A stretch of 64,000 bases of DNA, from assembly GCF_016900775.1 (NCBI RefSeq), contig NZ_JACJKN010000014.1:1-64000 (forward strand), in the 5' to 3' direction. The notes beneath the pieces are model-generated. The model made no database searches. It was not told the DNA's origin and worked only from the letters and a program-made list of their open reading frames with translations. Position 1 is the first letter of the stretch. Each line of letters starts with the position of its first letter. The stretch is from Olsenella uli (GTDB taxonomy: Bacteria > Actinomycetota > Coriobacteriia > Coriobacteriales > Atopobiaceae). Below, one piece after another: positions 23,445 to 58,542 of the stretch. The position numbers and the translations under genes are program-made.

Positions 23445-23537
23445 AGGCGAAGGCGACCTGACAAAGGTGACAGGGTCAACTGTCATGAACCATTCATGAC
23501 AGTTGACCCTGTCACCTTTGTCAGGTCGCCTTCGCCT
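23445..23537. repeat. 93-bp perfect palindrome (REPIN-like)
   Basis: Two perfect 45-bp arms around the centre CCA (23490-23492). The left arm runs outward-in as AGGCGAAGGCGACCTGACAA, then the GGTGACAGGG core, then TCAACTGTCATGAA. It is composed of two inverted copies of the short hairpin seen at 13455. It lies between clpB and the PASTA gene, and as RNA would be a very strong hairpin. Confidence 0.85.
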
Positions 23538-25204: not shown

Positions 25205-25345
25205 GTGATTGACGACAAGGACCAGAAGGACGCCGAGAAGAACGAGTTCGTGCGTGCGGAGAACGAGGACGACGACGGGTACGACCCCTATTCCGACCGG
25301 CTCCCGGACCCCGAGCCCCTCTTCGAGCGCGACCCCTGGTCGTGA
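25205..25345 (+). CDS. Small acidic protein downstream of the PASTA gene
   Basis: 46 aa from GTG 25205, with GGGGTGA just upstream, overlapping the end region of the PASTA gene. The sequence is highly acidic (NEDDDGYDPYSD, EPLFERDPWS) with no helix or motif that I recognise. The position, ribosome site and regular codon use support a real small gene in the same operon. Its TGA borders the palindrome at 25344. An unstructured regulator is a guess only. Confidence 0.5.
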   Translation: MIDDKDQKDAEKNEFVRAENEDDDGYDPYSDRLPDPEPLFERDPWS

Positions 25346-25416
25346 CGTGACAAAGGTGTCAGGGCAAACTGTCATGAAAGGTTCATGACAGTTTGCCCTG
25401 ACACCTTTGTCACGTC
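25344..25416. repeat. 73-bp perfect palindrome filling a convergent gap
   Basis: Two perfect 35-bp arms around AGG (25379-25381): GACGTGACAAAGGTGTCAGG, then GCAAACTGTCATGAA, and its complement. It exactly spans the gap between the plus-strand small gene (stop 25343-25345) and the minus-strand membrane gene (stop 25416-25418), so it is likely a bidirectional terminator in effect. Confidence 0.85.
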
Positions 25417-38282: not shown

Positions 38283-38371
38283 GCTAGGCTTCCTCTTCCG
38301 ACAAGCAGCAAGCGTGGGGCCCCGTGTCTGCGTATCGCAGGTGCGGGGCGCTTCTATCCGAAAGGGACAAC

Positions 38372-40591
38372 ATGGCAGAGAACACCGCCGCGACCAGCGC
38401 CGCCACTGACGAGCGCGCGATGCGCCGCGCCCGCCGCCAGGCGCTCATTGACGCGGGCGTGAACCCGTACCCCATCTCCTCCGAGGTCACGGCGCACGCC
38501 GCCGAGCTCGAGGCCACCTACGCCGAGCTCGAGGACGGCACGGACACCGAGGACGTGGTGAGCGTCGCCGGCCGCATCCGCGCCTTCCGCAAGCAGGGCA
38601 AGGCCGCCTTCATCGTGCTCGAGGACGTGACGGGCTCCATCCAGCTCTTCTGCCGCCGCGACGTGCTCGGCGACGAGGGCTGGGACCTGCTCGGCAAGCT
38701 CGACCTCGGCGACATCCTGGGCGCCACGGGCGCCGTCATGCGCACGCGCCGCGGCCAGCTTTCCGTCTCGCCCACGAGCCTCACCGTGCTCTCCAAGGCG
38801 CTCCGCCCGCTGCCGGAGAAGTTCCACGGCCTCACCGACCGCGAGGTCCGCTACCGCCAGCGCTACGTGGACCTCATCATGAACCCCGAGGTCCGCGACG
38901 TCTTCCGCAAGCGCAGCCAGATCGTCTCCCTCATCCGCCGCTACATGGAGGCGGACGGCTACATGGAGGTTGAGACGCCGATGATGCACGCCATCCTCGG
39001 CGGCGCCAACGCGCGTCCGTTTGTGACGCACTTCAACGCGCTCGATCGTGACTTCTACCTGCGCATCGCCACCGAGCTGCCGCTCAAGCGCCTCATCGTG
39101 GGCGGCCTCGAGCGCGTCTTTGAGATCGGCCGCAACTTCCGCAACGAGGGCATGGACCTCACGCACAACCCCGAGTTCACCTCGATGGAGGCCTACTGCG
39201 CCTACGCCGACCTCGAGGGGATGAAGCGCCTCTCCGAGGGCCTCTTCAAGATGATCGCGCGCGAGGTCTGCGGCTGCGCGGAGGGCCACGAGGTCATCAC
39301 CTTCCAGGGCCAGGAGATCGACATGTCCGGGGAGTGGGCCAGCCGCCCGCTGTCCGAGATCGCCTCCGAGTGCGTGGGCGAGCATGTGGACATGGACACC
39401 CCGGTCGAGCACCTGCGCGAGCTCTGCGAGAAGCACGGCATCGAGGTCCAGCCCAACTGGGGCGCCGGCAAGCTCCTCTTTGAGCTCTACGACGAGCTGG
39501 GCGAGAAGACCATCGTGAACCCCACCTTCGTGTGCGACTATCCCGAGGAGGTCTCCCCGCTCTCCAAGCGCAAGCCCGAGGACCCGCGCCTCACCGACCG
39601 CTTTGAGCTGGTCATCGCCGGCCACGAGTACGCCAACGCCTTCTCCGAGCTCAACGACCCCGTGGACCAGGCGGGCCGCTTCGCCGAGCAGGTGGCCGCC
39701 AAGGGCATGGGCGACGACGAGGCCATGGGCTACGACTACGACTACGTGCGCGCCCTCGAGTACGGCATGCCCCCGGCGGGCGGCATCGGCTACGGCATCG
39801 ATCGCATGGTCATGCTCTTCTGCGACCAGCCGGCCATCCGTGACGTGCTCCTCTTCCCGGCCATGAAGCCGGAGACCATCACCAAGGCGGACATCGAGGC
39901 GCAGGTTGCGGGTGCCGTGACGGACAACGCCGCGGCCTCCGTGGACGCCATCGCCGAGGACGCCGAGAAGGTCACGGCCACGCCTGCGGCGGCGCCGGCG
40001 GCGCTTGTCGCCGGGCTCTCCCGCGACGAGGCGCTCGCCCTTCTCGCCGAGCACAACAAGGAGGAGTTCCACCTCGAGCACGGTACGACCGTGGGCGGCG
40101 TGATGCGCGTCTTTGCCGGTGAGATGGACCCCGACAACGCCGACTTCTGGGAGGTCGTGGGCATCCTGCACGACCTCGACTGGGAGGAGCACGGCGACGA
40201 CCCGGTGGGCCACACCACCTACGCGGCCGAGCTCATTCGCGCGGCGGGCGGCTCCGAGGCGCTGGTGCGTGCCGTTCAGTCCCACAACTCCGACAACAAC
40301 CCCGAGCTGCCCGCGCCGGAGCTGCCCATGGAGAAGGTCCTCTTTGCCGTGGACGAGCTCACCGGCCTCATCGGCGCGGCCGTGATCATGCGCCCGAGCA
40401 AGTCCGTCATGGACTTCGAGGTGAAGTCGCTCAAGAAGAAGTTCAAGGACAAGCGCTTTGCCGCGGGCTGCGACCGCAACGTCATCCGCAAGGGCGCCGA
40501 GCTCTGCGGATGGGAGCTCGACGAGCTCTTCGCGCGCACCATCGACGCGATGAAGGCCATCGCGCCCGATCGCGACACGTTTGGCAAGTAG
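38372..40591 (+). CDS. lysS: Lysyl-tRNA synthetase (class II) fused to an HD-domain hydrolase
   Basis: 739 aa from ATG 38372, behind AAAGGG. Residues 1-500 are class II LysRS: an OB-fold anticodon domain (SVAGRIRAFRKQGKAAFIVLE), motif 1 around RRYMEADGYMEVETP, motif 2 (FEIGRNFRNEGMDLTHNPEF) and motif 3 (GGIGYGIDRMVML). A flexible Ala-rich linker (about 505-548) leads to a C-terminal HD domain: HLEHGTTVGGVMRV, VVGILHDLDWEEHGDD with the HD pair near residue 598, GHTTYAAELI, AVQSHNSDN, and AVDELTGLI. Usual LysRS is about 500 aa, so some 200 residues are extra. The HD part keeps its metal ligands and looks active; its substrate is unknown. Confidence 0.93.
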   Translation: MAENTAATSAATDERAMRRARRQALIDAGVNPYPISSEVTAHAAELEATYAELEDGTDTEDVVSVAGRIRAFRKQGKAAFIVLEDVTGSIQLFCRRDVLGDEGWDLLGKLDLGDILGATGAVMRTRRGQLSVSPTSLTVLSKALRPLPEKFHGLTDREVRYRQRYVDLIMNPEVRDVFRKRSQIVSLIRRYMEADGYMEVETPMMHAILGGANARPFVTHFNALDRDFYLRIATELPLKRLIVGGLERVFEIGRNFRNEGMDLTHNPEFTSMEAYCAYADLEGMKRLSEGLFKMIAREVCGCAEGHEVITFQGQEIDMSGEWASRPLSEIASECVGEHVDMDTPVEHLRELCEKHGIEVQPNWGAGKLLFELYDELGEKTIVNPTFVCDYPEEVSPLSKRKPEDPRLTDRFELVIAGHEYANAFSELNDPVDQAGRFAEQVAAKGMGDDEAMGYDYDYVRALEYGMPPAGGIGYGIDRMVMLFCDQPAIRDVLLFPAMKPETITKADIEAQVAGAVTDNAAASVDAIAEDAEKVTATPAAAPAALVAGLSRDEALALLAEHNKEEFHLEHGTTVGGVMRVFAGEMDPDNADFWEVVGILHDLDWEEHGDDPVGHTTYAAELIRAAGGSEALVRAVQSHNSDNNPELPAPELPMEKVLFAVDELTGLIGAAVIMRPSKSVMDFEVKSLKKKFKDKRFAAGCDRNVIRKGAELCGWELDELFARTIDAMKAIAPDRDTFGK

Positions 40592-40623
40592 CAGCGGGGC
40601 GCCCCGAGGTTCTTCTCGCCGCG

Positions 40624-40783
40624 CGCCCCGTGGCCGCACTCGCGGAGGGCACTCGCGAGTGCGGCCACGGGGCGGGTTGCGTGAGGGCACTCCCTCAATA
40701 CCCTCGGAAATCTGGCCGCATTCGCGTTCTTATCGCCGCGAGTGCGGCCGCACTTTTGGAGGGCACTTGCGAGTGCGCCCGCC
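40624..40783. repeat. GC-rich palindrome cluster left of the nuclease-like gene
   Basis: A perfect 21-bp stem CGCCCCGTGGCCGCACTCGC(G) at 40624-40644 with its complement at 40654-40674, then variants of GAGTGCGGCCGCACT and GAGGGCACTTGCGAGTGC to 40783. The tokens AGTGCGGCCGCACT and CACTCGCGAGTG recur on the other side of the gene (42137-42292). No coding frame is supported in 40592-40801. Confidence 0.75.
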
Positions 40784-40801
40784 CACCGTCCCGCGCCGGG
40801 C

Positions 40802-41908
40802 TTACCACGCGGGCTTCTCGCTTGGGGCGGCGGGCAGCATCTGGCTCAGAAGGACGATGCGCGCCTGCCGGGCGTCTGGGTCGCCGAGCGTCTTCCGAAC
40901 CCTGCACTCAAACGCGGGCCCCTCCGTGCGAGCAAGGGAGTGGGCAATGAGGGCAAGGTAGGCGTCGAGGGCATGGATGGTCCTCACGTTCTTGTAGCTG
41001 GCGGGAAACACGGAGATCCCGCAGGCCTGGTAGTCGCGGATACGCCGCTGGTCCTCCTCAAAGCCCTTCTCGCTCACGTGGTCCTTGCCGTTGTACTCCG
41101 AGGCCGTGCGCTGTCCGTTCCAGTGAAAGTCGGGGCGCATCTGCCTGTGCTCGATGAGACCGCGCGCCTCTGCGGGCCACTCGATGGGGGCGTTCTCCAG
41201 AAACGGCGGAAACTCGACGCCGCCCATCCGCGCGGGCAGTTTGTAGACAAACGAGAGCAGCGTCTCCTCGGGCGATCCCGCACCGGACTGCACGAGCGCC
41301 GCCGCTCTTCTGGCGCGCTTGATGCCCCTGATGCCGCGCGCCTCCTCAAGAAACGCGACGATGTCCTCGGGCGTTGCGATGGGCGGGAGCTCGAAGGCGC
41401 AGGGGCCGTGCGCGGGGTCTGCGGGGTCGCGGGCGTATGAGCCGCAGGCCTCCATGGGAAACGTCGGCAGGCGGTAGAACGCTGCCGTGCTGGTGAGCGC
41501 CCCAAGCTCCACCTGTCGGCCGAGCTGCTGCTCAACCCGTATGAGGCTGAGGCCGGCGGACTCGACAAAGAGGCGCAGCGGCTCATCCCCCGCACACGGC
41601 CATGCCTCGCCCGACGTCCGAAGCACCTCGAGAAACGCGTTCTCGGGAAGGTCGGCGAGCAGTGCGCGCGGCCGGACACCATGCGCCCCGCTGCGATTTG
41701 CCCGCGAGAAAAACGTGAGGTTGAGGGGCGTGCCCGGCTGCGCCGGGACCACCTCCTCCGGAAGGGCGAGCCACAGCGCGGGAACGTCAAGGATGCCCGT
41801 GGCAAGCTCGCGGTGCGCGTTTCCCGCGGGCTCGAGGGCTAGGTCGGGGCTGGCGCGGGCGAGGCGGGTGAGCTTGAGCGAGTCGGTTCCGGCAAGAAAT
41901 ACGTTCAT
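40802..41908 (-). CDS. Hypothetical protein with predicted PD-(D/E)XK-like (DUF559/Vsr-like) domain
   Basis: 368 aa from ATG 41908, behind GGAGG. The N-terminal 180 residues resemble the AbiEi-like proteins common in Coriobacteriia (LWLALPEEVVPAQPGTPLNLTFFSR, LPTFPMEACGSYA). A central helical part holds SFVYKLPARMGGVEFPPFL. The C-terminal 110 residues read RQMRPDFHWNGQRTASEYNG, then HVSEKGFEEDQRRIRDYQACGISVFPASY, the layout of Vsr/DUF559 endonuclease domains (PDF.W....EY.G..H......D..R). The middle of the active site has N-G-K rather than the usual D-G, so activity is uncertain. It is flanked by palindrome clusters and not in an operon. Possible roles are defence or regulation, by inference only. 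Confidence 0.6.
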   Translation of the reverse strand: MNVFLAGTDSLKLTRLARASPDLALEPAGNAHRELATGILDVPALWLALPEEVVPAQPGTPLNLTFFSRANRSGAHGVRPRALLADLPENAFLEVLRTSGEAWPCAGDEPLRLFVESAGLSLIRVEQQLGRQVELGALTSTAAFYRLPTFPMEACGSYARDPADPAHGPCAFELPPIATPEDIVAFLEEARGIRGIKRARRAAALVQSGAGSPEETLLSFVYKLPARMGGVEFPPFLENAPIEWPAEARGLIEHRQMRPDFHWNGQRTASEYNGKDHVSEKGFEEDQRRIRDYQACGISVFPASYKNVRTIHALDAYLALIAHSLARTEGPAFECRVRKTLGDPDARQARIVLLSQMLPAAPSEKPAW

Positions 41909-42136
41909 GGGCACACCTCCGAGTGCGAGGATGGCCCAGCATAGAGAGCATGGGGTTCCGGGATGCCTGCATGCTCCTCTCCGCCTTCGGACGCCTTTCT
42001 GACGAGGCGGCCGGGGCACGCGGCAGAGGGGCAGGCAGCGGCCCCGGGAGAAACGATGCGTTGCGGACGCCCGTTTTGGGCGGGACGTCGGCGTGTCGCA
42101 AAATCTATAGATGGGCGCGGGGCGGGTGCGGGCGGC

Positions 42137-42292
42137 TCCCGTGAGTGCCCTCCGCAAGTGCCCTCCGCAGGTGCGGCCGCACTCGCGACATATTTCACGT
42201 GGGTGCGGGCATCCTGCGGGGCAATCCCCGCGAGTACCCGCTTAGACACCGCCGTGTGACCGCACTCGCGAGTGCCCTGCGAGAGTGCCCCC
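42137..42292. repeat. GC-rich palindrome cluster right of the nuclease-like gene
   Basis: GAGTGCCCTCCGCAAGTGCC units, GTGCGGCCGCACTCGCGA near 42173-42188, and CCGCACTCGCGAGTGCCC near 42262-42279. Same vocabulary as 40624-40783. The stretch 41909-42402 has no supported gene otherwise; a GCGAGAAGAACG copy lies at 42309. Confidence 0.7.
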
Positions 42293-42402: not shown

Positions 42403-44982
42403 ATGTTTGAGAAGTTTACCGACAAGGCGCGCAAGGTGATGAGCCTCGCGCAGGAGGAGGCGCGCGGCCTCGGGCAGATGTACGTGGGCACCGAGCACCT
42501 GCTCCTGGCGCTCATCAAGGAGGGCGACGGCGTGGCGGCCCAGGCGCTCGCCAAGCTCGACGTCACCTATGACGAGACGCTCTCCACCGTGCGCGACCTC
42601 ACGCCGAGCGAGACCGAGCCCGTCCCCGGCGGGCACATCCCCTTCACGCCGCGCGCCAAGCGCGTGCTCGAGGGGGCGTATCGCGAGACGATGACCCACG
42701 GCCAGACGTACATCTCGACCGAGCACCTGCTGCTGGGGATCGTCTCCGAGGGCAACGGCCGCGCGATGGACGCCCTGCGCCAGATGGGCGTCTCGGCCGA
42801 CGCCGTGCGCAACGCCGTGAACGAGCTCGCCTCGAAGTCCTCCGAGAGCGCGCAGCCCGCCACGGCCGACGTGCGGATGGCCGGCTTTGGCGGCCCCGGC
42901 CCGCAGCAGTCCGGCGACGAGGGCTCCGTGCTGGAGCAGTACGGCCGCAACCTCACCAAGCTCGCCGCCGACGACCGGCTTGACCCGGTGATCGGCCGTG
43001 ACCGCGAGATAGAGCGCGTCATGCAGGTCCTCGCGCGCCGGCAGAAGAACAACCCGCTCATCCTGGGCGACCCGGGCGTGGGCAAGACGGCCATCGTCGA
43101 GGGGCTCGCGCAGCTCATCGCCGGGGGCAACGTGCCGGACATCCTGCGCGGCAAGCAGATCTGGACGCTCGACCTCGCGAGCCTCGTCGCCGGCTCCAAG
43201 TACCGCGGCGAGTTCGAGGAGCGCATGAAGAAGGTCGTCAAGGAGCTCCAGGACTCCAAGGAGGACATCCTCTTCATCGACGAGATCCACACCGTGATCG
43301 GCGCGGGCTCGGCCGAGGGCTCCATCGACGCGGCCTCCATCCTGAAGCCGCCCCTCTCGCGCGGCGAGATCCAGGTCATCGGCGCCACCACCGCCGAGGA
43401 GTACCGCAAGCACGTGGAGAAGGACTCCGCCTTCGAGCGGCGCTTCCAGCCGGTGAACATCGGCGAGCCCTCCCCCGAGGACACGATCAAGATCATCGAG
43501 GGCCTGAAGGAGCGCTACGAGAAGCACCACCACGTCCGCTACACGGACGCCGCCGTGGAGGCGGCCGTGACGCTCTCGAGCCGCTACGTGCAGGACCGGT
43601 TCCTGCCGGACAAGGCCATCGACGTGCTCGACGAGGCGGGCGCCCGCACGCGCGTGCACAAGATGGCGCTGCCGCCCGAGATCGCCCAGACCGACGCTGA
43701 CCTCGCCCGCGTGCGCGAGGAGAAGTCGGCCGCCGCGGCCGCCCAGGAGTTCGAGGAGGCGGCGCGCCTGCGCGACGAGGAGAAGGCGCTCGTGGCCCGC
43801 CGCGACGAGCTCGAGGCCAAGTGGCGCGAGGAGCTGGCCGCCAACGTGGTGACCGTGGACGAGAACGATATCGCGGACGTGGTCTCCACGATGACGGGCG
43901 TGCCCGTCTCGAGCCTCACCGAGGCCGAGGCCTCCAAGCTCCTGCGCTGCGAGGACGTGCTCCACGAGCGCGTCGTGGGCCAGGACGAGGCCGTGACCAA
44001 GGTCGCCAAGGCCATCCGCCGCAGCCGCAGCCCCCTCAAGGACCCGCGCCGCCCCGGCGGCTCGTTCATCTTCCTCGGCCCCTCGGGCGTGGGCAAGACC
44101 GAGCTCGCCAAGGCGCTCGCCGAATTCCTCTTCGGCTCCGAGGAGGCGCTCATCAGCTTTGACATGTCCGAGTTCATGGAGAAGCACACCGTCTCCAAGC
44201 TCGTGGGCGCGCCTCCCGGATACGTGGGCTACGACGAGGGCGGCGAGCTCACCAAGGCCGTGCGCCGCCGGCCCTACTCCGTCGTGCTCTTCGACGAGGT
44301 GGAGAAGGCGCACCCCGACGTCTTCAACGTCCTTCTCCAGATCCTGGAGGAGGGTCGCCTCACGGACGGCCAGGGCCGCCACGTGGACTTCTCCAACACC
44401 GTCATCATCATGACGTCCAACATCGGCGCGCGCGACATCGCGCAGACCACCACGATGGGCTTCTCCGCCCAGGGGGCGGGCGGCCTCTCCGACAAGGAGA
44501 TCACGAGCCGCGTGATGTCCGAGCTCAAGAAGCACTTCCGCCCGGAGTTCTTGAACCGCGTGGACGAGGTCGTGGTCTTCAAGTCCCTCACGTCCGAGCA
44601 GCTGCGCGGGATCGTGGAGCTCATGGTGGCCGACCTGCGCGACCGCCTCATCGCGCAGGGGATGTCCATCGAGCTCACGGACGCCGCGCGCGATCTTGTG
44701 GCCAAGGAGGGGGCCGACCCGGTCTACGGCGCGCGGCCGCTGCGCCGCGCCATCCAGACGCTCATCGAGGACCCGCTCTCCGAGGAGCTGCTGCAGAACC
44801 TCTGGCACCGCGGGGAGATCATCCGCGTGGACGAGAAGGACGGGCGGCTCGTCTTTGAGCACGCGACCGGCGAGATTCCCGCGCCGCGCCGCCGCGAGCA
44901 CATGGCCTCGCCCGACCTGGCGTCGCTTCCGGAGCCGTCCGCCCCGCGCGCGAGCGGCGGAAGCCTCCTCGCATCCGACTAG
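42403..44982 (+). CDS. clpC: Clp protease ATPase subunit ClpC
   Basis: 859 aa from ATG 42403, behind GGGAGGG. Clp N-repeats ([32 protein letters not shown]) cover residues 1-150. AAA1 has [14 protein letters not shown] and [15 protein letters not shown]. The short UVR-type middle domain ([20 protein letters not shown]) marks ClpC rather than ClpB. AAA2 has [14 protein letters not shown] and [17 protein letters not shown]. It unfolds substrates for ClpP; no clpP is in the window. CtsR, often its repressor in Firmicutes, is absent nearby. disA follows after 119 bp, as in many Gram-positives, though radA is missing from the set. Confidence 0.96.
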
Positions 44983-46181: not shown

Positions 46182-46966
46182 TGGAGGTCGGCGCCCCGAT
46201 GCGCGACGCGCCCGCGCCCTGCGCGTGCGCGCAGCCGCTTCCCGCGGGCGCGCCCGAGGTCGGACCGGACACCTGCGCCGTTATCGTGGCGGGCGGCACC
46301 GGGGAGCGCTTTGGCGACCCGCGCGGCAAGCAGTTCGTGGAGCTCTGCGGGCTGCCGCTCATGTGCTGGTCCATCGCCGCCTTCGACCAGGCGCCCTCCG
46401 TCGCGCGCATCGTGATCGTGTGCGCCCCGGAGCGCGGGGCGGAGGTCGAGAAGGACGTGCTCTCGCGGCTCTCCCTGACCAAGCCCGTGTCCCTTGCCCC
46501 CTCTGGCGCGACGCGGCAGGCCTCTGTGCTCTCGGGCCTGGGGTCGGTGCCCCGCGAGCTGGAGTTCGTTGCCGTGCATGACGCGGCGCGCCCGCTCATC
46601 GAGGTCGAGATGATCGAGCGGGCCGTTGCCGCCGTGCGCGGGGACGCCACGCTCGCCGGCGCCATCCTGGCGTCGCGCTCCGTTGACACGCTCAAGCTCG
46701 TTGAGGGGGACACCATCGTCGCCACGCCGGATCGCTCGTTCTACTGGGCGGCGCAGACCCCGCAGGTCTTCCGGCGGCGCGTCCTGCTCGCGGCGCACCG
46801 GGCGGCTGCCCGCGACGAGTACCAGGGGACCGACGACTCCTCCCTCGTGGAGCGCCACGGCGGGCGCGTGCGCGTGGTCGAGTGCTCGCGCGACAACATA
46901 AAGGTGACCGTCCCCGAGGATCTGGCCCTCGCCGAGGCGGCCCTCGGCCAGCGCCTCCTGACCTGA
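46181..46966 (+). CDS. ispD: 2-C-methyl-D-erythritol 4-phosphate cytidylyltransferase
   Basis: 261 aa from ATG 46181, overlapping the disA stop by one base. ATG 46199 behind GGAGG with 10-nt spacing is an alternative and would remove six residues. IspD motifs: VIVAGGTGERFGDPRGKQFVEL, AVHDAARPLI, and the late SFYWAAQTPQVFR and DNIKVTVPEDLALAEAAL. It makes CDP-ME from MEP and CTP. The extra N-terminal Ala/Pro/Cys-rich stretch (residues 1-30) is unusual. The TGA stop lies within a palindrome. Confidence 0.94.
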   Translation: MEVGAPMRDAPAPCACAQPLPAGAPEVGPDTCAVIVAGGTGERFGDPRGKQFVELCGLPLMCWSIAAFDQAPSVARIVIVCAPERGAEVEKDVLSRLSLTKPVSLAPSGATRQASVLSGLGSVPRELEFVAVHDAARPLIEVEMIERAVAAVRGDATLAGAILASRSVDTLKLVEGDTIVATPDRSFYWAAQTPQVFRRRVLLAAHRAAARDEYQGTDDSSLVERHGGRVRVVECSRDNIKVTVPEDLALAEAALGQRLLT

Positions 46967-47031
46967 CAAGGGTGCCGGGGCAAACTGTCATGAGCCCTTC
47001 ATGACAGTTTGCCCCGGCACCCTTGTCAGGT
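46961..47031. repeat. 71-bp perfect palindrome between ispD and ispF
   Basis: Two 33-bp perfect arms around GCCCT (46994-46998): ACCTGACAAGGGTGCCGGGG, then CAAACTGTCATGA. It includes the ispD stop codon. The core change AAGGGTGCCGGGG is matched by a compensating change in the other arm. Confidence 0.85.
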
Positions 47032-47065
47032 CACCTTTGTCGGGTCGCGCGAGAGAGGACTGCGC

Positions 47066-51974: not shown

Positions 51975-52053
51975 GGGCTGCTGACAAAGGTGTCGGGGTC
52001 GTTTGTCATGAACCTTTCATGACAAACGACCCCGACACCTTTGTCAGCAGCCC
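51975..52053. repeat. 79-bp perfect palindrome before the tRNA cluster
   Basis: Two perfect 38-bp arms around CCT (52013-52015): GGGCTGCTGACAAAGGTGTC, then GGGGTCGTTTGTCATGAA. Same family as 23445, 25344 and 46961. Confidence 0.85.
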
Positions 52054-58083: not shown

Positions 58084-58542
58084 TAGGGGATGGCATGCGT
58101 TGCGGGGTTGGGGGCCGTGGCAATTCCCGGGACGGCCGCGTTGTTGTTTTGGGGCATATGGCAGCCAGGGCGGAACGCCAACAGGGCGTTCTTCTCGGCA
58201 TGTTGCGGAATCCGCGGCTGTGGCAGGCCAATCGCTGCCACAGCCCCAGAATGGACAACGCCAAAAATGCCAACAGCGCCGTAACCCCCGATTTGATAAC
58301 GGGAGGCGGGAAGCAGGGCCGCTGACGGCGAGAAGAACGTCGAGCGGCGGGCAACCACCGAACCTACACATAGAGGTTCTTCTCGCCACAGCGTTTATGC
58401 AGCTCAAGGGGGTATCCGCGAAAAGCTACTCGAAAACGGTAGGCAAGTCAAGACTTTTCATTGACCGAACCAGGTGGTTTCGGTACCTTATTACATTGCG
58501 ACAATTGCCGCCTTCCACCCTTTTTGAAGGAGGAAAAGCCTG
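58084..58542. other. rplL-rpoB intergenic region with hairpin and 12-mer pair
   Basis: No gene is supported in these 459 bp. A stem GGCTGTGGCAG/CTGCCACAGCC lies at 58216-58245. An imperfect 12-mer (GTTCTTCTCGGC) lies near 58190, and an inverted pair of perfect copies at 58327 and 58376. Just before rpoB, ACCGAACC...GGTTTCGGT forms a short dyad, and TTGACC near 58462 is a candidate -35 with a weak -10. The AAGGAGGAAAAGCC ribosome site of rpoB closes the stretch. Confidence 0.5.
58327..58387. repeat. Inverted pair of the 12-mer GGCGAGAAGAAC
   Basis: GGCGAGAAGAAC (58327-58338) and GTTCTTCTCGCC (58376-58387), 12-bp perfect arms with a 37-bp loop. It is the only place in the window where two copies face each other. 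Confidence 0.8.

Follow-up and report, generated by a model that had tools for sequence, protein, structure and literature searches.

The 64-kb stretch of DNA analyzed here, from a gut-type bacterium (the window; its genome is designated G000, the genomes compared with it G plus a number, and loci or genes L plus a number) contains a nuclease-like gene that is bracketed by two composite palindromic elements of ~165 nt each. The gene lies between a lysyl-tRNA synthetase gene and a Clp ATPase gene, which we take to be lysS and clpC. The features of the locus are as follows.

38324..40591, plus strand: left neighbor, lysyl-tRNA synthetase (lysS) with a C-terminal HD-like extension (Pfam class II synthetase and HD)
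40624..40787, plus strand: left palindromic element, with perfect 21-nt arms (40624-40644 and 40654-40674), a spacer and a GAGTGCGGCCGCACT unit at ~40737-40787
40802..41908, minus strand: nuclease-like gene, 368 amino acids, ATG start at 41908
40922..41278, minus strand: Vsr/EDxHD-like nuclease domain, residues 211-329, from structure match and conservation
41288..41908, minus strand: AbiEi-like N-terminal part, residues 1-207, from a weak fold match
41909..42125, minus strand: leader of ~220 nt between the right element and the start codon, a spacing as in other matched loci of the gene family (median 243 nt)
42126..42292, minus strand: right palindromic element, an inverted copy of the left element
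42403..44982, plus strand: right neighbor, Clp ATPase (clpC; Pfam Clp_N and AAA_2)

Alignments of orthologues with the window protein begin at residue 1 or 2. At each of the 16 syntenic loci the nuclease-like gene has lysS and clpC as its direct neighbors; no AbiEii toxin gene adjoins it, and neither of these two neighbors is a DNA cytosine methyltransferase. The LysS frame codes for 755 amino acids, and its residues 585–679 match Pfam HD just under the cut-off (E 2.6e-4, 21.7 bits, cut-off 22), which suggests that in the product of 38324-40591 an HD-type domain is fused to the lysyl-tRNA synthetase.

The initial annotation of this sequence had pointed to matching palindrome clusters on both sides of the gene, and these were confirmed. 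As a score we used the best local match, in either orientation, between the 400 bp upstream and the 400 bp downstream of a gene. The flanks of the window gene score 34.5, compared with 11.2 ± 1.3 (maximum 15.5) for 30 dinucleotide shuffles and a maximum of 13.0 over 40 cross-locus comparisons. The left and right clusters pair as inverted repeats over 35 nt at 91%, 31 nt at 84% and 62 nt at 76% identity. Within the window, CACTCGCGAGTG occurs exactly at 40650 and 42263, that is on both sides of the gene, and with one mismatch at 40764, and AGTGCGGCCGCACT occurs exactly at 40741 only, with a one-mismatch form, GGTGCGGCCGCACT, at 42170. All four window copies of GAGTGCGGCC lie within the two clusters. 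Two mismatches add one further window match for AGTGCGGCCGCACT and three for CACTCGCGAGTG; the six CACTCGCGAGTG matches found at up to two mismatches are neither rarer nor commoner than in shuffled sequence (mean 7.59). The striking feature of the window palindromes is their clustering and not the motif count.

When treated as single-stranded DNA, the left element (40620-40795) folds with a z of −7.5, which none of 200 shuffles equaled. REP palindromes have a GT(A/G)G head beside them; both window elements are devoid of GTAG and CTAC, and each contains GTGG once, on the left inside a palindrome arm (40630) and on the right at 42199. Outside the elements, GTTCTTCTCGCC and its complement are situated at 40610 and 42311. 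By eye this motif brackets many of the elements, and it is commoner between genes than expected from their share of bases (24 seen, 7.4 expected, in 464 kb).

The window protein matches no family in Pfam (searched up to E 10), NCBIfam or PADLOC. An AlphaFold2 model was compared by structure; it was made from an alignment of 29 family members and has a pLDDT of 90.7 and a pTM of 0.88. Foldseek with this model returned nothing at E ≤0.001, and its best relevant match was I-Bth0305I (E 0.38, probability 0.87). In VIA-align, residues 212–327 of the model superimpose on I-Bth0305I (3r3p) with Z 10.0 and an rmsd of 2.5 over 95 residues. Vsr follows with Z 8.7 (1cw0) and 8.0 (1vsr), values that two mitoribosome chains also reach on the same C-terminal stretch (Z 8.9 and 8.7), and TnsA has Z 5.9. 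Residues 1–207 match AbiEi (6y8q) weakly, with Z 6.4 and an rmsd of 4.3 over 123 residues. Among 116 family proteins, Ser-212, Glu-215, Asn-239 and Asp-260 are invariant, His-277 is found in 115, Glu-271 in 112 and Asp-286 in 109, and position 289 is Arg in 107 and Lys in nine. We take the conserved Glu, Asp, His and Asp to be equivalent to the EDxHD catalytic residues. One of the 29 aligned members matches MTES_1575 (2.4e-4), and one matches DUF559 (6.1e-3). The AbiEi-like and Vsr-like parts that had been assigned from the sequence are supported by structure prediction, the AbiEi-like part by a weak match, but not by the family databases. The natural reading of these results is a predicted active nuclease with an AbiEi-like part.

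Of 140 genomes in the taxonomic family, at least 125 contain a match to the window protein at E ≤1e-5. Paralogues are numerous within a genome and diverse in sequence; 12 matches are found in this one (weakest E 6e-5). In a sample of the phylum, 56 of 296 genomes match, including 21 of the 23 in the same order, with E values down to 1e-160. For the 35 matching genomes outside the order in this sample, the best E is 1.5e-16 and the matches are mostly C-terminal. Among named relatives, Thermophilibacter provencensis (Atopobiaceae) is the nearest, with a protein that is 91% identical. Searches of plasmid and phage collections gave no match for the window protein.

To determine how general the matched flanks are, the best matches to the window protein were scored in the same way, with start codons chosen by a simple rule. 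Of 117 loci that were parsed, two were skipped for short flanks and 115 were scored; 80 further stretches were included, of which 79 have family genes (three of them repeat earlier loci with wider margins) and one, chosen arbitrarily, was left unscored. The background consisted of another 336 genes, all taken from 464 kb of this genome and called as longest open reading frames, a procedure by which the family gene L054 was overlooked in the sample and the window gene came out too long. The score exceeds all of 30 dinucleotide shuffles at 64 of the 115 loci and all of 40 cross-locus comparisons at 59. A score of at least 20 is reached by 54 of the 115 family loci, drawn from many genomes, versus four of the 336 background genes, which are all from this genome (Fisher p 1.6e-32, which is optimistic, as are all p values here, because the loci are related and non-independent). 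Within this genome alone, the proportion is 5 of 12 family genes versus 4 of 336 others (p 2e-6). One of these four background genes is of the RAYT type, and another is a PASTA gene with RAYT-type repeats on each side. When the cut is lowered to 16, 62 of 115 family loci and 12 of 336 other genes (15 less three family genes) pass. Chance or base composition as the source of the matched flanks was ruled out by the shuffles, the cross-locus pairs and the 336 other genes.

The pairing covers part of the gene family. The remaining 61 of the 115 loci score below 20, and one subfamily has no matched flanks (L109, L116-118, L122-124, L128, L133 and L136, all ≤11). Seven loci came from outside the genus; one belongs to the same family and six to other families of the order. 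All seven stay below 20, and two of the six score 16.5–17. Where flanks match, the spacing is regular: at the 54 matched loci the element lies a median of 243 nt from the start codon (interquartile range 206–293), and on the other side a median of 40 nt past the stop codon (29–58). The possibility that the leader (~240 nt) holds a guide RNA or other structured RNA was considered and set aside: the leaders align poorly, and the Rfam matches are below the gathering score and mostly on the palindrome. Among the 62 loci scoring at least 16, the matches are direct in 34, inverted in 26 and tied in two, which differs from the RAYT rule.

The flank sequence is specific to each gene. The 54 loci were compared with one another in 1,298 non-syntenic pairs, of which only seven reach a score of 20; the medians are 11.5–14. 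The identity of the proteins and the similarity of their flanks are weakly correlated over such pairs (rho 0.178, permutation p 0.0025); for the 27 loci of the genus, rho is 0.263 and p 0.052. In a comparison for homogenization of left and right flanks, the left-right match of a locus is higher than both same-side orthologue comparisons in 7 of 16 loci; this is confounded by neighboring coding and promoter sequence and was left out of the evidence.

The site of the window gene was compared across the genus, where clpC was located in 29 of 31 genomes. A family gene lies between lysS and clpC in 16 loci, running against lysS in nine and along it in seven; both orientations of the cassette thus occur at this one site. 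All of these loci score at least 20 except L033. The 13 other slots were inspected by eye; in several there is no nuclease but a palindromic array of another kind, the slot of G088 is short and clean, and that of G100 is unreadable. By eye, the arrays are alike within a locus and different between species. In G112, G096 and G111 (L148, L149 and L152) a membrane acyltransferase-like gene, named from its translation, takes the place of the nuclease, and in G111 a palindromic element precedes it.

Two of the genomes are close to this one at the neighboring genes. The N terminus of ClpC is 99% identical in G098 and 98% in G091, and the C terminus of LysS is 92% identical in both. In G091 the nuclease is 91% identical and the palindrome is the same, with nine copies of AGTGCGGCC in the locus. 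In G098 the nuclease (L030) is only 62% identical to the window protein. The 4.1-kb locus contains AGTGCGGCC, AGTGCCGGC and GTGTCGGC five, zero and zero times in G000 and zero, seven and seven times in G098. A solo element of G098 next to secG keeps four copies of AGTGCGGCC and has none of AGTGCCGGC. Gene and flanks of G098 thus differ as a unit, in this one case.

Solo copies of the element are also found in other intergenic regions. The left element as a query gives 23 matches in this genome at E ≤1, several of which are the two flanks themselves. Three solo copies are clear (C9:36056-36210, C11:39547-39613 and C66:35877-36023, E ≤1e-7), and weaker ones (E 0.002–0.02) are situated at C35 (two, best E 0.002), C6:66756 and C1:156031. 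The copies at C9, C66, C11 and C35 align to both flanks over most of the composite, and a second exact AGTGCGGCCGCACT lies at G000:C66:35984. Such copies are few, three clear and several weak, a low copy number unlike that of typical REPs. For other family genes, further sites in the 464 kb number eight for the element of L058, two for L055 and three for L059 (two of them weak). Within the window, 58112-58262 is a solo copy of the element flanking the family nuclease gene L058 (G000:C1, ~113 kb).

One site of solo elements, between tRNA-Leu and secG, was readable on both sides in 15 of 27 loci. It contains a window-type element in this genome, G098 and G091, another type in G101, G105 and G100, and others in G109 and G089; in G095 the matched parts are separated by 113 nt without an element. 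A solo element in the lysS-clpC slot of G107 and G111 gave six and five matches, respectively, the query sites included. One G111 match (85% over 38 nt, E 1e-4) is directly downstream of the family gene L232, which is 41% identical to L055; the whole element is readable there, and no copy was seen on the upstream side of L232. This finding of a family gene beside an element of the G107/G111 type is encouraging but is not proof. The six G107 matches have no family gene within 1.5 kb. The same holds for a many-copy element of G087 and G099 (L168, L170, L238-L267) with CCCGGAATCGCCG-type palindromes, unlike the RAYT flanks tested, for which 30 loci were fetched and no partner gene was seen at them.

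The initial annotation had found the palindromes nowhere else in the window. For exact and one-mismatch copies this stands, but the genome holds the solo copies at C9, C11 and C66 and the weaker ones at C35. The picture of a lone cassette with its own repeats was likewise modified: the link between gene and palindromes proved general, yet the solo copies are dispersed, more like a REP/RAYT pair. A wide spread of the palindromes with no tie to the gene family had been named as evidence against the idea, and of this one half was seen, as they are spread in low copy and yet linked to the family.

RAYT systems do occur in the same genome. There are five Y1_Tnp (RAYT-type) genes, all away from the window gene; four have matched flanks (19.5–26.5), and the fifth scores 10.5. 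The matched flanks of the four are by eye of the GGGGACAG or TGACAAAGG type. A REPIN-like family of ~40 copies (81 matches on both strands) matches one RAYT flank with 22.5. Members of this family, of the GTGACAAAGGTGTCAGGG type and 65–74 nt long, are present in the window at 23455-23527, 25335-25416, 46956-47034 and 51982-52046; they match the flank of the RAYT-type gene at G000:C2:101701, and two of them flank a PASTA-domain gene. In 108 flank comparisons of the 12 nuclease genes with nine RAYT loci (nine of the 12 RAYT stretches fetched), the maximum is 18.0 and the rest are ≤16. The maximum belongs to L052, which has an element downstream only and was left out as a pair because of this and its weak RAYT similarity. 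RAYT repeats as the source of the window element were ruled out by this comparison with nine RAYT flanks, and the nuclease/palindrome and RAYT/repeat systems appear as two separate systems that coexist in the genome.

At the matched loci, the genes of this family are paired with gene-specific palindromes at a regular spacing, with solo copies, one joint difference and conserved nuclease residues. On these observations we lean towards a REPtron-like unit, in which a Vsr-type nuclease would take the place of the HuH transposase and act on its own palindromes; the binding, the cleavage and a spread driven by cleavage are what we infer. We consider it unlikely that the protein is instead a defense or regulatory nuclease whose flanks are operators or self-markers, by which the gene is repressed or the locus spared, with the solo copies as regulatory sites. 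AbiEi represses its own expression by binding to inverted repeats in the promoter (PMC3985639), and many sequence-diverse paralogues per genome would suit such a role. A scan of the last 200 nt for a promoter consensus found best sites that are weak and scattered (−16 to −178), so that operators in the flank are possible. Against this, the elements are found not only upstream, at a median of 243 nt from the start codon, but likewise 40 nt past the stop, the solo elements resemble whole ~165-nt composite units, PADLOC finds no family, and the direct neighbors are lysS and clpC in all 16 syntenic loci.

We give equally little weight to ordinary REPIN- or MITE-like repeats, moved by a RAYT or other transposase, beside which the nuclease genes are passengers or are preferentially inserted. 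The five Y1_Tnp genes and the ~40-copy REPIN-like family show that such repeats are at hand, and for some element families no nuclease gene was found nearby. The nuclease flanks, however, are unlike the nine RAYT flanks tested, paired flanks are rare at other genes (4 of 336, one a RAYT), and in G098 flanks and nuclease differ together. It is highly improbable that terminator-like palindromes, through repeated local duplication and through gene conversion, produced the arrangement with no role for the protein; the elements are intergenic and the left one folds strongly, but this would leave the enrichment at one gene family, the regular spacing and the solo copies unexplained.

For the REPtron-like unit, the following course can be proposed. 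The AbiEi-like N-terminal part of the proteins with matched flanks would bind DNA, and the Vsr/EDxHD-like C-terminal domain would nick or cut it. The targets would be the palindromes flanking the protein's own gene and their intergenic solo copies, probably attacked while extruded or as single-stranded hairpins. The two flanks would stay alike through repair from another copy, and cutting with repair would also allow inversion of the cassette or its exchange as a whole and now and then give rise to new solo elements. More tentatively, such units may constitute a class of systems that mobilize or maintain palindromes and are common in this bacterial family; an AbiEi-Vsr nuclease would replace the HuH transposase of REPtrons in them, and each paralogue would evolve its own palindromic target and spread it by cut-and-repair.

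Several known systems share parts of this arrangement. DUF559 and MTES_1575 restriction-like nucleases each match a single aligned family member, but the window protein itself has no Pfam match. I-Bth0305I/EDxHD homing endonucleases and Vsr are the best structural matches of the catalytic domain, and the Glu, Asp, His and Asp that we take as equivalent are kept; unlike them, the window gene lies between two genes, without an adjoining methyltransferase, and we know of neither a homing site for its product nor an intron location. AbiEi, the antitoxin of a type IV toxin-antitoxin system, provides a precedent through its binding of inverted repeats (PMC3985639) and the weak N-terminal fold match. 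In contrast to AbiEi, the family proteins have a joined nuclease domain and no adjoining AbiEii toxin, and the palindromes lie on both sides of the gene and elsewhere.

The literature searched, mostly without subscription papers and preprints, contains no description of this pairing of gene and palindromes. By word search, the REP survey PMC12306157 contains no Coriobacteri-, Olsenella, Collinsella or nuclease, and the REP survey PMC3733652 no Olsenella, Atopobium, Collinsella, Slackia or Actinobact-, with nuclease in a reference title only. The pairing could explain the number and diversity of such nucleases in these bacteria. Dozens of nucleases, moreover, come naturally paired with a likely DNA target, making sequence recognition by AbiEi-like and Vsr-like proteins directly testable.

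To our knowledge, REPtrons are the case in which the gene of a bacterial enzyme goes together with dispersed palindromes of its own. Their layout is described for RAYTs in PMC2817692 and PMC8266576, and the spread of REPs is, in the latter, unsettled; a second, unrelated enzyme class with this layout would be an independent test case. The resemblance lies in a single gene between matched palindromes, a sequence of its own for each gene, dispersed intergenic solo copies, signs of joint divergence of gene and repeat, and no plasmid or phage match for the window protein. REPtrons differ in having a HuH Y1 transposase, where a Vsr/EDxHD-like nuclease with an AbiEi-like part is found here; the window elements are longer composites (~165 nt) without GTAG, their solo copies are far fewer, and RAYT-type genes with their own repeats coexist with them. 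Because the enzyme is unrelated and GTAG is absent, we do not assign the nuclease/palindrome unit to the REPtron class, but it plausibly works like one. This family of predicted nucleases, many of whose genes have matching palindromes on both sides, has the appearance of a class of selfish or domesticated genetic elements that has drawn little notice.
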